A stretch of 64,000 bases of DNA from Hymenobacter sp. PAMC 26628 (GTDB taxonomy: Bacteria; Bacteroidota; Bacteroidia; Cytophagales; Hymenobacteraceae), in assembly GCF_001562275.1 (NCBI RefSeq), contig NZ_CP014304.1, positions 4,898,001 to 4,962,000 of the forward strand, read 5' to 3'. This document shows, one piece after another, positions 59,655-64,000 of the stretch. The position numbers were made by a program, and so were the translations under genes. Positions within the stretch are counted from its first letter, which is position 1; the number at the start of each line of letters is the position of its first letter. Under the pieces are notes generated by a model. The model saw nothing but the letters and a program-made list of their open reading frames with translations, was not told the DNA's origin and did not search any database.

Positions 59655-60965
59655 ATGGCCACCGCTGCTCCCGAACCCGTCGTTTCTGCCGTTGTGCCGC
59701 TGCTCACCCGCGAGCTGGTGCTGCGCGCGCTGCGGCAAATCGACCGCGCCGGCGCTACGCTGCCGCCCAGCACCGTATACGAGTTGGTGTACCGCAGCCG
59801 CCGCTACCCGCCCCGCGCCGTGGCCGAGTGGGCCCACCGCCTGGCCACCGGCGACGCCGCCGCGCGCTGGCCCCACCCCGCCGGCACGCCCACCAACGCC
59901 GTGCTTGAGGCCCTCGACTTCACCATCAGCACCAAGCGCCCCGTGCTGGCCCCCGGCCACGCCAACGATGCTGCCGAATCGGCTGACGGCCTCTACCTCG
60001 GGGGCCCCGAACCGGCCACCCCCACGCCGGCCGCCGAGCCCGCGGCGCCGTACGCGCCCGCCGGGCCACCCCCCGTGCCCGCCGAACCCTACACCAAGGC
60101 CGAGGCGCTGGCCGAGCTGCTCATGGCTGAGGATGAGCTGGATGCCGCCTTGGCCGGCCTGGCCCGCCGCCGCAACCTGCTGCTGCAAGGGCCCCCCGGC
60201 ACGGGCAAAACCTTTCTGGCCCGGCGGCTGGCCTGGCTGCTGCTGGGCGCCCGCGACGAGAGCCGCCTGGAGCTGGTGCAGTTCCATCCCAGCTACGGCT
60301 ACGAGGATTTTGTGCTCGGCTTCCGGCCCGACGACCGGGGCCAGTTCCGGCTGGTGCCGGGCGTGCTGCCGCTGCTGTGCCAGCGCGCCGCCGCCGACCC
60401 CACCCGGCCCTACGTACTGCTGATTGACGAGCTGAACCGGGGGCAGGTGGCGCGCATTTTTGGCGAGTTGCTGGGCTTGCTCGAAGCCGACAAGCGGGGC
60501 CCCGCCCACGCCCTGCGCCTGCCCTACGCCCCGCCCGAAGCCCCGCGCTTCTTCGTGCCCGAAAACCTGTTTGTCGTCGCCACCCTCAACCTGGCCGACC
60601 GCTCCCTGAGCCCGCTCGACTACGCCCTGCGCCGCCGCTTTGCCGTGGTGGAGCTGCGGCCACAGTTTGGGGCCCCGCTGCGGGCGCTGCTGGCCGCCCA
60701 CGGCGTACCCGGGGCCCTGGCCGAACGCCTCACCGCCCGCCTCACCGCCCTCAACCAAACGATAAGCGACGACCCCGGCCTGGGCCCCGATTTTGTCCTG
60801 GGCCACAGCTATTTCGTGCCGCCGCCCGGCCCGCTGGCCGCGCCCGCGGCGTGGCTGCGCCTCGTCATCGACCAAGAAATAGGGCCCCTGCTGGCCGACT
60901 ACTGGCGCGACGAGCCCGCCACGGCCGCCGCCCAGCTGCGCAAGCTGCGGGGTCTATCTGGGTAG
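59655..60965 (+). CDS. mcrB: McrB-type GTPase subunit of a modified-DNA restriction system
   Basis: 436 residues. The C-terminal AAA+ domain has all McrB marks: Walker A LLQGPPGTGKTFLARRLAWL (about residue 175), VQFHPSYGYEDFVLGFRP, Walker B YVLLIDELNRGQVARIFGEL and NLADRSLSPLDYALRRRFAV (the NxxD GTP-specificity region and Arg finger). The N-terminal ~100 residues (STVYELVYRSRRYPPRAVAE, GTPTNAVLEALDFTIS) resemble a small DNA-recognition domain with a Y-x-LVY-x-x-RRYPP motif found in other restriction proteins; a Pro/Ala linker joins it. McrB binds modified DNA, and GTP hydrolysis moves the complex while McrC cuts. The McrC gene is not next, but 2.4 kb downstream. Confidence 0.9.
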   Translation: MATAAPEPVVSAVVPLLTRELVLRALRQIDRAGATLPPSTVYELVYRSRRYPPRAVAEWAHRLATGDAAARWPHPAGTPTNAVLEALDFTISTKRPVLAPGHANDAAESADGLYLGGPEPATPTPAAEPAAPYAPAGPPPVPAEPYTKAEALAELLMAEDELDAALAGLARRRNLLLQGPPGTGKTFLARRLAWLLLGARDESRLELVQFHPSYGYEDFVLGFRPDDRGQFRLVPGVLPLLCQRAAADPTRPYVLLIDELNRGQVARIFGELLGLLEADKRGPAHALRLPYAPPEAPRFFVPENLFVVATLNLADRSLSPLDYALRRRFAVVELRPQFGAPLRALLAAHGVPGALAERLTARLTALNQTISDDPGLGPDFVLGHSYFVPPPGPLAAPAAWLRLVIDQEIGPLLADYWRDEPATAAAQLRKLRGLSG

Positions 60966-61134
60966 TGGGAGGTAGGGGCCCTGGGCCGCGCTGCCGAACG
61001 CGGGGGAGGGCCTTTACAAAGTCCTTCCAGAATCTCGGGACTCTCTGGGTCCGGGAAGCAGCTGCCAATAGCCAATTTTTACATTGTAAGCGCGACTTTT
61101 TGCAACATGTGAAAACCTATGAAACAGGTTGTTA
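60966..61134. other. mcrB-distal junction of the inserted segment
   Basis: 169 bases of transition: GC-rich DNA of mcrB gives way to AT-richer DNA near 61070. No terminator and no gene is seen. A CCTTTACAAAGTCCTTCCAG stretch has no obvious match on the far side of the insert. Confidence 0.4.
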
Positions 61135-61914
61135 TTACAAAGGTGCCCTGCTATTTTCGTGTTGATACCAGTTTGCCAATTGGCGGTGAACCGTCTGCTC
61201 CGAAGTGGTATCCGCTAATAATTGCCGATACGTCATCTTTTTTACGTCCAAGCAATAGGTGGTAAGAATAAGGTAGTTAGCGTATTCACGGCTTGCGTTG
61301 GTACTGTCGGCTAGCGTAATACCCCATTCGTGCGGTGTTGCTTGCGCCGCTTGGTTTAATTGCCGGATCTGTTGGCGCAAAGGGGGGCAGTTGGGGCCCC
61401 GGCGAGCGACGTACTCCGCGTAGCCTTCCCATTTCCACGTCGGGTAGCGCGCTACTGGGTTTGACTGCCAGAAACCCAGCCGACGCACCTGGTAACAATG
61501 GGTGGCTTCGTGGGCTAGTAGCTGAACCAGGTTCCATTTGTAGCCATTCAGGTACAGGTAATTAGCTGCAGGGTTAGCTTCTCCGCTGAGCACAACGTTA
61601 TGGTAGAAACCCCACGCAAACGCGGGGCCCCACAGCTTTTCTATGAGGTTGGGGTACCGCGACCCATCGTTCAAGCAGATGTTCAGGCGTAGGGTCGAAT
61701 CAAAGCAGCTACTTTGTTGAACTATGGTGCGCACTTGTTCCAAACGGGGCAGTAGCGCCGGGTCCAGGGAGCGGTTGTGGTAGATGACGTAGTGGGCCGT
61801 TGCCGTTCGATTCGCGTATAAGAGCCCAGGATTCAGCAACAACAAGGCAAATACCAGGCTCAGCAAAGCGCCGGAAGTCAGGAGCGAAAACGTCCATTTC
61901 TTGCGCGTACTCAC
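61135..61914 (-). CDS. gluzincin-type metallopeptidase-like membrane protein
   Basis: 259 residues from GTG. N-terminal signal anchor (SLLTSGALLSLVFALLLLNP), then an extracytoplasmic domain with the zinc motif LLAHEATHCYQVRRLGFW (HExxH) and, about 25 residues on, KWEGYAEYVARRG, giving the third ligand Glu of gluzincins. Four Cys in the mature part could form disulfides. It overlaps the upstream oxidoreductase gene by four bases (GTGA), so translation is probably coupled. Lower GC than the genome and opposite strand to mcrB/mcrC suggest separate origin. Confidence 0.78.
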   Translation of the reverse strand: MSTRKKWTFSLLTSGALLSLVFALLLLNPGLLYANRTATAHYVIYHNRSLDPALLPRLEQVRTIVQQSSCFDSTLRLNICLNDGSRYPNLIEKLWGPAFAWGFYHNVVLSGEANPAANYLYLNGYKWNLVQLLAHEATHCYQVRRLGFWQSNPVARYPTWKWEGYAEYVARRGPNCPPLRQQIRQLNQAAQATPHEWGITLADSTNASREYANYLILTTYCLDVKKMTYRQLLADTTSEQTVHRQLANWYQHENSRAPL

Positions 61915-63029
61915 GCCAAAGTAATTTTTCGGCCCGTGTGAGCCGCCCGGTAGATGGCTTCTATTACCCGCATGTCTTTGCGGCCTTCCTCGCCGGAAAT
62001 ATGGACGGGCAAAGGCTTGTTAGCCAAGATGTGCTGGGCAATGTCATCCAGCTGCGCCGCCTGTTGGTTGACCACGGGAAAATTAAACGCGGCCCGGCTG
62101 GTCCGGCCTTTGAAAGGCCCGTAGCTGAGGGCGGGCTCCAACTCAAAATAGCCCTCGTCGGCGGAGGCAAAGAAGCGGTCAACGTTGCAGTTCGACGTGC
62201 TGGAGGAGGTGCAGATGGCCCCGCTGGGGAAATAGAGCTGCCACGTAATATTTTCTTCCACTTCTTTGAACAGTGCGGGCATGGTAACGGGCCCGATCTG
62301 CGCCGTGACGGCCACCGGTTCTTCACCCAGCACGTAGCGGCCGCTTTGCACGCAGTATACCCCTAGGTTCATGAGGGGCCCCCCGCCGGCCAGCGCTTTG
62401 TTCAAGTGCCAGTCGTCTGGGCTTATCCCTTCCAACCGGTAGCCTAACGAAGCCTCCATGAGCCGCACCTGCCCGAAGATCTTGTCTTGGCCCAGCCGTT
62501 TTAATTCAATGTGGTGGGGGTCGTAGTGCAGCCGGTACCCAACTGCTAATTGTACCCCCGCCTTTTGGCAGGCGTCAATCATTTCCCGGCAGTCCTGCTC
62601 CGTGAAGGCCATCGGTTTTTCCACGATGACGTGCTTACCCGCCTTGGCGGCCCGGAGGACGTATTCTTTGTGCAACCCGTTGGGGAGGGTTATGTACACC
62701 AAATCAATGTCTGGATTGCGGCTGAGCTGGTCGAAGGTTTGGTAGGTATAGCTGTTTTTGTCCGGTATGCCATACGCCCGCTGCCACTCAGCCGCCTTGG
62801 CGGGGGTGCCCGTCACAATGCCCGCCAGGCGGCAATATTGCGACGCCGCCAGCCCACCTTTGAGCACGTTGGCGTAGCGGCCCAAGCCACAGAGCGCAAT
62901 ATTCAGTCGTTGCTTATCCTGCACATTCGCGCGTTCCGGTGTCATCGAGACGAGGGAAGGCAACGTAACCGCGGCCCCCAATCCCCAGCCCATTTGCTCG
63001 ATGAATGTGCGTCTTGAATAAGTGCTCAT
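61911..63029 (-). CDS. Gfo/Idh/MocA family oxidoreductase, Tat-exported
   Basis: 372 residues. A twin-arginine signal (YSRRTFIEQMGWGLGAAV) directs it to the periplasm folded. The NAD(P) Rossmann domain has NIALCGLGRYANVLKGGL, ITLPNGLHKEYVLRAAKAGK with HVIVEKPMAF (catalytic EKP Lys), and the sugar-binding domain VGYRLHYDPHHIELKRLG, AGGGPLMNLGVYCVQSGRYV. A glucose-fructose oxidoreductase-type reaction with tightly bound cofactor is likely. Lower GC and an overlap with the peptidase gene point to a transferred two-gene unit. Confidence 0.9.
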   Translation of the reverse strand: MSTYSRRTFIEQMGWGLGAAVTLPSLVSMTPERANVQDKQRLNIALCGLGRYANVLKGGLAASQYCRLAGIVTGTPAKAAEWQRAYGIPDKNSYTYQTFDQLSRNPDIDLVYITLPNGLHKEYVLRAAKAGKHVIVEKPMAFTEQDCREMIDACQKAGVQLAVGYRLHYDPHHIELKRLGQDKIFGQVRLMEASLGYRLEGISPDDWHLNKALAGGGPLMNLGVYCVQSGRYVLGEEPVAVTAQIGPVTMPALFKEVEENITWQLYFPSGAICTSSSTSNCNVDRFFASADEGYFELEPALSYGPFKGRTSRAAFNFPVVNQQAAQLDDIAQHILANKPLPVHISGEEGRKDMRVIEAIYRAAHTGRKITLA

Positions 63030-63343
63030 GCAGTGAGGGCTTTAGTTGCGCTAAAAAGTAGATGAAGTTTGACTGGTGCGGCCTTCAAAACTATGGATTT
63101 AAATGGTCACCCAGCTTTGCGCGGAATGCTGGTAAGTACAATTTCACATGCGCTGGGCGTAGCAGATGCAGTTACTGAGACGCGCTTTTAAGCAAGCCCA
63201 ACCTTTGGATAAAGTCCCCGAAATGTCGTGTTTTTGTATTTCGGGAGGGCCTTATTTTGTTAGTGGCAAAGCACTTCCCTGCACGAATACCAGGCGAGCC
63301 GCGCAGCCTTCCGTAATCTAACCAGCCGCTTCCCACCGCCCAC
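63030..63343. other. 314-base gap between the oxidoreductase and mcrC
   Basis: Divergent promoter region. A CCCGAAAT / ATTTCGGG hairpin with a 13-base T-rich loop (about 63217-63246) and a TTATTTTG element (about 63250) are the only structures; the rest shows no gene. Confidence 0.45.
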
Positions 63344-64000
63344 ATGGCTCCCACCGTTCCGCTCGCTACGCTCTACTACCTGCTGTGCTACGCCTGGAAC
63401 CGCTTGCCCGAGCCGGCCGACTGGGCCCCGGGCGGCGCCGCGCCCTTCCACCGGCCGCTGGAGCTGCTCACGCAGCTGCTGCTGCAAGCCACGCGCCGGC
63501 TGCTGCGCACGGGCCTGCCGCTGGCCTTCGAGGAGCACGAGGAGGTGCTGGGCACGCTGCGCGGGCGCGTGGCGCTGGGGGCCTCGCTGGCGCGGGGGCT
63601 ATTGCCGCAGGGCCGCGCCGTGTGCCGCTTCGTGGAGCTGGGGCCCGATGCGCCGCTGGCCCGCCTGTTGGCCGCCACCCTGGCTGCGCTGGCCGCCCGC
63701 CCGGCCCTGCCCGTGGCGCTGCGGCGCGAAGTGCAGCACCTGCGGCGGCGGTTGCCCGGGAGCCTGGCGCTGGCCCCGGCCGGGGCCCCATCATCCGAAC
63801 TATTTGGGGCCCTGCGCCAGCAGCGGTGGGGGGGCGAGGCGGCGTTTGCCCTGCACTTGTGCGAGCTGGTGTGGCGGCACGCGCTGCCCGCGCCCGGGGC
63901 CCCGGGCCGGGGCCGGGTGCTGGATTTTCGGCGCGACGAGCCGCTGATGGCGCGGCTGTTCGAGCAGTTTGTGCGCAACTTCTACCGGCGTGAGCAGCGG
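63344..64000 (+). CDS. mcrC: McrC-like subunit of a modified-DNA restriction system, 3' end outside window
   Basis: 219 residues are visible from the ATG giving MAPTVPLATLYYLL; the frame is open to the window edge, so the C-terminal nuclease part is missing here. The McrC N-terminal signature is clear: LYYLLCYAWNRLPEP, PLELLTQLLLQATRRLLRTG, the GRVALGASLARGLLPQGRAV segment followed by CRFVELGPDAPLARLLAATL, and, close to the end, PLMARLFEQFVRNFYRREQ, which precedes the PD-(D/E)XK domain in McrC proteins. McrC is the nuclease that works with McrB. Base composition is as in mcrB, not as in the genes between them. Confidence 0.85.
   Translation, partial: MAPTVPLATLYYLLCYAWNRLPEPADWAPGGAAPFHRPLELLTQLLLQATRRLLRTGLPLAFEEHEEVLGTLRGRVALGASLARGLLPQGRAVCRFVELGPDAPLARLLAATLAALAARPALPVALRREVQHLRRRLPGSLALAPAGAPSSELFGALRQQRWGGEAAFALHLCELVWRHALPAPGAPGRGRVLDFRRDEPLMARLFEQFVRNFYRREQR

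Follow-up and report, generated by a model that had tools for sequence, protein, structure and literature searches.

The mcrB–mcrC spacer of a Hymenobacter branch as a probable exchange slot for unrelated genes

McrB and McrC normally come from one operon with mcrB first, and a census of the system found that intervening genes "occasionally" part the two (PMC11090510). How, then, did an oxidoreductase gene and a peptidase gene come to lie on the opposite strand between mcrB and mcrC in Hymenobacter sp. PAMC 26628? The window, by which we mean the whole 64,000-nucleotide stretch analyzed here (G000:C2:4898001-4962000), belongs to a 5.37-Mb genome (G000), and the genus was sampled as 120 species with one genome per species. 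A preliminary description of the window had placed forward mcrB and mcrC genes on either side of a reverse oxidoreductase–peptidase pair, a layout that was confirmed by profile searches and coordinates, with both mcr genes intact:

59655-60965, plus strand: mcrB, AAA+ GTPase subunit, 436 aa, intact, a core gene of the genus
60966-61134, no strand: left part of the spacer, compared by blastn with G048, G049 and G011
61135-61914, minus strand: PEP, 259 aa from a GTG start, putative gluzincin-like metallopeptidase with a membrane anchor
61911-63029, minus strand: GFO, Gfo/Idh/MocA oxidoreductase with a twin-arginine signal, 372 aa
63030-63343, no strand: right part of the spacer, compared by blastn with relatives
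63344-64000, plus strand: first part of mcrC (whole gene 63344-64405, 353 aa, intact)

The gap of 2378 bp holds two reverse genes, so that the subunit genes are not adjacent as they usually are in McrBC, and the GTG start of PEP overlaps the GFO stop by 4 bp. Homology to G048, G049 and G011 continued from mcrB into the spacer as far as about 60995-61082, beyond which the sequence was replaced; on the right side, the homology of relatives picked up again at about 63281-63343. The end of mcrC at 64405 lies past the window (G000:C2 from 4961344 to about 4962402), and the sequence completed from the genome contained no stop and no frameshift.

Profile matches and motifs identified both subunits. 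McrB matched AAA_5 of Pfam (E=2.8e-20) and, at E=1.2e-67 but without reaching the equivalog cut-off, the McrB model of NCBIfam (NF008457), and it carried the Walker A motif GPPGTGKT and the NxxD signature NLAD that mark the AAA+ GTPase subunit. The frame at 63344, which the preliminary description had taken for McrC, is McrC: it scored 63.2 bits against PF10117 (cut-off 23.9), matched NF007277 at E=8e-67, again below the equivalog cut-off of the model, and contained a PD-(D/E)xK nuclease motif (D-x-K, LDTKYY). Walker A and NxxD were kept in 113 of 118 loci and the D-T-K motif of McrC in 111 of 118, according to an automated reading in which a contig end or a wrongly placed start explains some of the absences. 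The pair thus resembles the Type IV McrBC of E. coli K-12, where McrB, an AAA+ protein carrying Walker A and NxxD motifs, is encoded upstream of a PF10117/D-x-K McrC. No Pfam domain scored at E<=0.001 in the N-terminal region of McrB (residues 1-160), where a domain that binds modified bases would be expected. The pair differs from typical McrBC in that the subunit genes are repeatedly separated, and in that McrBC, elsewhere a patchy defence gene, is here a universal pair at a fixed locus. A PF10117 match, indicating a McrBC-family gene, was present in 120/120 genomes of the genus, and an orthologue was found in each genome queried with the McrC protein of the window, including 8/8 of a sister genus. 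The orthologue occupies two fixed loci, by clade: in the first clade the genes that follow it encode a sigma factor and an HtrA-like protein, and in the second they are TldD/PmbA-like (51-56 of 59 loci). McrBC is core, single-copy as an orthologue and positionally fixed genus-wide, which is unusual among restriction systems. In two near-identical genomes, G073 (L182) and G072 (L183), mcrC was broken and the reading of mcrB was also disturbed, which may mean that the core pair is in decay in both.

The preliminary description had offered insertion into an operon as one explanation of the layout and had suggested that related genomes be compared. Because the two genes directly adjoin each other in 10 outgroup genomes, and because a close relative, G093, whose McrC is 88% identical, has an 88-bp spacer with no passenger gene, we conclude that the operon was split by insertion. 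The median mcrB–mcrC spacer was 600 bp inside the branch to which the window belongs, as opposed to 77-87 bp in the rest of the genus, and spacers of at least 300 bp were found in 23 of the 33 loci of the branch, which have dioxygenase and U290 genes as neighbours, versus 6 of 85 in the remaining genus. Ten of the 33 branch spacers were empty. The four-gene order of the window is not general either, being intact only in this genome, with a decayed copy in G048. Two genomes beyond the branch carry other inserts between mcrB and mcrC (L131, L123).

The preliminary description did not see that the contents of the spacer are exchanged: at this slot, relatives of G000 hold ten other kinds of gene, unrelated to one another. 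Passengers were present in 23 of the 33 branch genomes and were of ten unrelated kinds, in either orientation:

G000, the window: GFO and PEP pair, intact
G018 (McrC 96% identical over a fragment): APH-type kinase
G048 (McrC 96%): PEP, the remnant of a GFO gene, and a gene for an outer-membrane beta-barrel protein
G049, H. nivis (McrC 93%): lipocalin
G011 (McrC 90%): DUF5071 protein
More distant members, 4 genomes: CarboxypepD_reg-like proteins
More distant members, 3 genomes: SMI1/KNR4 proteins
More distant members, 4 genomes, one of them with a broken gene: F143, a 143-aa protein
More distant members, 4 genomes: TM88, an 88-aa membrane protein
More distant members, 2 genomes: OMP184
More distant members, 1 genome: zinc-ribbon/membrane gene, broken

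Five kinds were forward and six reverse, showing no orientation bias. Occupancy is not strictly single, because G048 has two units, PEP with the GFO remnant and the outer-membrane protein.

On a 35-tip tree built from six flanking proteins, the content of the slot changed at least 16 times, compared to 4 times for the spacer between a chromate transporter gene and the dioxygenase gene, which served as a control and which has received an insertion of ~1.2 kb in four branch genomes (L044, L113, L117, L047). The other nearby spacers gained no gene in the branch genomes, their lengths being about 200-350 bp (dioxygenase–U290), about 130-350 bp (U290–mcrB), about 470-730 bp (mcrC–sigma factor) and about 35-150 bp (sigma factor–HtrA). 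Among ~60 adjacent gene pairs of a 73-kb region compared with G049, just two other spacers differed by >300 bp. Two loci that are nearly identical in the tree, L038 and L083, carried different passengers (OMP184 and F143, respectively), with mcrB about 90-98% identical per 100-bp interval up to its stop, the identity as far as that stop being about 95% overall, and mcrC 83-100% identical after its start. Variable content between ancestrally contiguous core genes, as observed here, is one mark of a hotspot of the type described by Oliveira et al.

Part of this pattern could be mimicked by differential loss, if the spacer had formerly contained more small genes in a row, of which the lineages kept different members. 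Such old residence would be consistent with the span of the recurrent families (TM88, F143, SMI1/KNR4, CarboxypepD_reg-like and OMP184) across the branch at 50-75% protein identity. However, in none of the spacers examined did two recurrent families, or remnants of two, occur together; spacers were short in the outgroups and in the other clade; and the near-identical sisters L038 and L083 would require independent large losses. We consider differential loss quite unlikely. A mobile element or a small integron-like unit that integrates site-specifically, with the mcrB or mcrC end as its target, would account for the fixed position of the slot, and the GFO remnant of G048 is interrupted by a palindromic REP-like element (L165). 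Yet no integrase, transposase or attachment-type repeat was found in the spacer, and we regard such integration as very improbable. The direct repeats sought on the flanks of the insert came down to a single 11-bp candidate (61004-61014 and 63243-63253), which was rejected as a target duplication: its left-flank copy was not conserved in relatives. The REP-like element of G048 had no copy within the window; similar palindromes occur in some short spacers elsewhere (L066, L048).

We therefore favour, as the probable explanation, a single-occupancy exchange slot between mcrB and mcrC in this branch, with GFO and PEP as one passenger and recombination as the means of replacement. McrBC began as a close-set operon whose spacer opened in this branch of Hymenobacter, and the comparison of genomes shows that the spacer content was replaced repeatedly thereafter, by unrelated passengers that came singly. 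The whole spacer was probably swapped by homologous recombination through the conserved 3′ end of mcrB and 5′ end of mcrC, a route already proposed for hotspots devoid of mobile elements (Oliveira et al. 2017, PMC5635113), and the donor DNA would have come from other Hymenobacter. In pairs with the same passenger, the likeness of the mcrC start exceeded the expectation from the rest of mcrC by 0.024 (permutation p=0.0002); this small excess is a suggestive signal of exchange, because the shuffled labels leave out part of the shared ancestry and relatedness is only partly controlled. No donor, recombination tract or vehicle for the exchange was identified. Exchange may have been helped by tolerance for a separately expressed mcrC; a search of 29 spacers for a Bacteroidota-type promoter (TTTG/TTG-N-TAnnTTTG) ahead of mcrC gave no match.

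GFO matched PF01408 (E=7.8e-27) and PF22725 (E=5.4e-18), both over the cut-off, and thus combines the Rossmann NAD-binding domain with the C-terminal domain of Gfo/Idh/MocA proteins; its N-terminus carries the twin-arginine sequence SRRTF. PEP had no family in Pfam, NCBIfam or PADLOC and no solid PDB match by sequence. Its HExxH motif and a downstream glutamate were invariant across 23 relatives (H135, E136, H139, E163/E167), and the best PDB folds for its AlphaFold2 model (mean pLDDT 93) were those of ColG/ColH collagenase and of M61, M1 and M4 enzymes, all gluzincins. With HExxH, a third glutamate ligand and a predicted zincin fold, PEP is a putative gluzincin metallopeptidase. The predicted fold is nearest to bacterial collagenase peptidase domains, and PEP represents an unnamed, membrane-anchored, gluzincin-like family of Bacteroidota with no Pfam or NCBIfam model. 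The genome collection contained 46 other loci of the family (L203-L248), nearly all from Bacteroidota, of which only that of H. nivis had an adjoining GFO.

The preliminary description had read the lower GC of the pair as a sign of transfer. The contrast itself is real, with 0.74 for mcrB, 0.75 for mcrC, 0.585 for GFO and 0.54 for PEP against a window mean of 0.645, but it is no proof of foreign origin, because mcrB and mcrC themselves lie ~10 points above the mean and because a second, resident copy of the pair is low in GC as well (0.60 for GFO and 0.575 for PEP). This second pair, also intact, lies at G000:C2:4321313-4323201 (L164), is 88% (GFO) and 79% (PEP) identical to the slot copies, has genes for an ABC-transporter ATPase and an esterase-like protein next to it, and is syntenic with the pair of G049 (H. 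nivis S9.2P). Base composition thus gives no support to the idea of a transferred unit. For PEP, dS was 0.60 between the slot copies of G000 and G048 and 0.59 between the resident copies of G000 and G049, compared to 1.17 between the slot and resident copies within G000. Judging from these distances, the ancestor of G000 and G048 probably already held GFO and PEP in the slot, and the slot pair probably parted from the resident pair earlier still. If the branching is right, GFO and PEP were replaced in G018 and G049; this branching is weakly supported and is not resolved in the 35-tip tree. The G048 slot retains PEP, with only a C-terminal piece of the decayed GFO. The pair in the slot would either stem from an older duplication of the resident pair or have come from a related species.

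Could the passengers be functional accessories of McrBC, swappable proteins that modulate it, inhibit it or act as partner effectors, in the sense of "guilt by embedding"? The recurrent passengers in the slot form their own subfamilies, a pattern not strongly expected of a wholly neutral site, and TM88, known from five genomes, is slot-located in four of them. SMI1/KNR4 and DUF5071 proteins are frequently linked to immunity or toxin loci, which also speaks for an accessory function. In other defence operons, moreover, the genes found inside frequently serve defence themselves (PMC12255303). By contrast, six of the 11 passenger kinds lie on the opposite strand, and most passengers encode ordinary proteins of the envelope or of metabolism (lipocalin, porin-like, Gfo/Idh/MocA, CarboxypepD_reg-like). 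PADLOC gave no defence model for GFO, PEP, F143, SMI1/KNR4 or TM88. Empty spacers are common, and McrBC is under purifying selection where they occur. Finally, recurrent co-occurrence of the pair with McrBC, raised as a possibility in the preliminary description, was not observed: McrBC lay within about 6 kb of PEP relatives in 0/46 loci. An accessory role is therefore unlikely on our assessment, and the earlier reading of the pair as cargo gained support. GFO and PEP probably have no role in defence; their sequences and the predicted fold point to a separate job in the envelope for a Tat-exported sugar-type oxidoreductase and a membrane-anchored peptidase.

Between G000 and four relatives with differing spacers, dN/dS was 0.20-0.25 for mcrB and 0.10-0.24 for mcrC, and values of 0.08-0.20 were obtained in two other pairs, showing that both subunits, on the two sides of the insert, are under purifying selection. 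McrBC presumably still restricts DNA here. It is also conceivable, if rather improbable, that the slot is a tuning site, where the passenger sets the McrC:McrB level or supplies a swappable partner (TM88, F143, SMI1/KNR4); exchange of passengers would then alter the behaviour of a core restriction system.

Both split McrBC systems and defence operons with other genes inside them are already known. Like the hotspots of Oliveira et al. 2017 (PMC5635113), the exchange slot varies in content while the core genes on its two sides are conserved, turns over fast and has no integrase; unlike them, it is very small, holds a single passenger and parts two subunit genes that are both obligate for the same enzyme. 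Those hotspots were delimited within a species, by an excess of transferred genes over 95% of simulations on its pan-genome; the slot was seen across species and judged by local spacer controls. Strain-variable extra genes also occur between restriction subunit genes in Campylobacter type I R-M loci, which contain variable ORFs (rlo; PMC2610378), and between hsdS and hsdR, where DarTG2 occupies a site that has been named as a possible hotspot of recombination (PMC12255303). Whereas those inserts are often defence or toxin genes, the slot holds mostly ordinary envelope and metabolic genes. A literature search found no paper linking Hymenobacter with McrBC, which is weak evidence with most subscription journals outside the search, and no account of genes, most of them unconnected with defence, being exchanged one by one between a pair of obligate subunits.

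Since most of the embedded genes here resemble plain cargo, the locus calls for caution with "guilt by embedding", by which embedded genes are called new defence genes. The branch offers a repeated natural experiment in which unrelated genes come and go between the obligate subunits of a genus-wide restriction enzyme while the enzyme is kept. That McrBC is core and fixed in place throughout the genus raises the question of whether, besides defence, it may have a house-keeping role in Hymenobacter.
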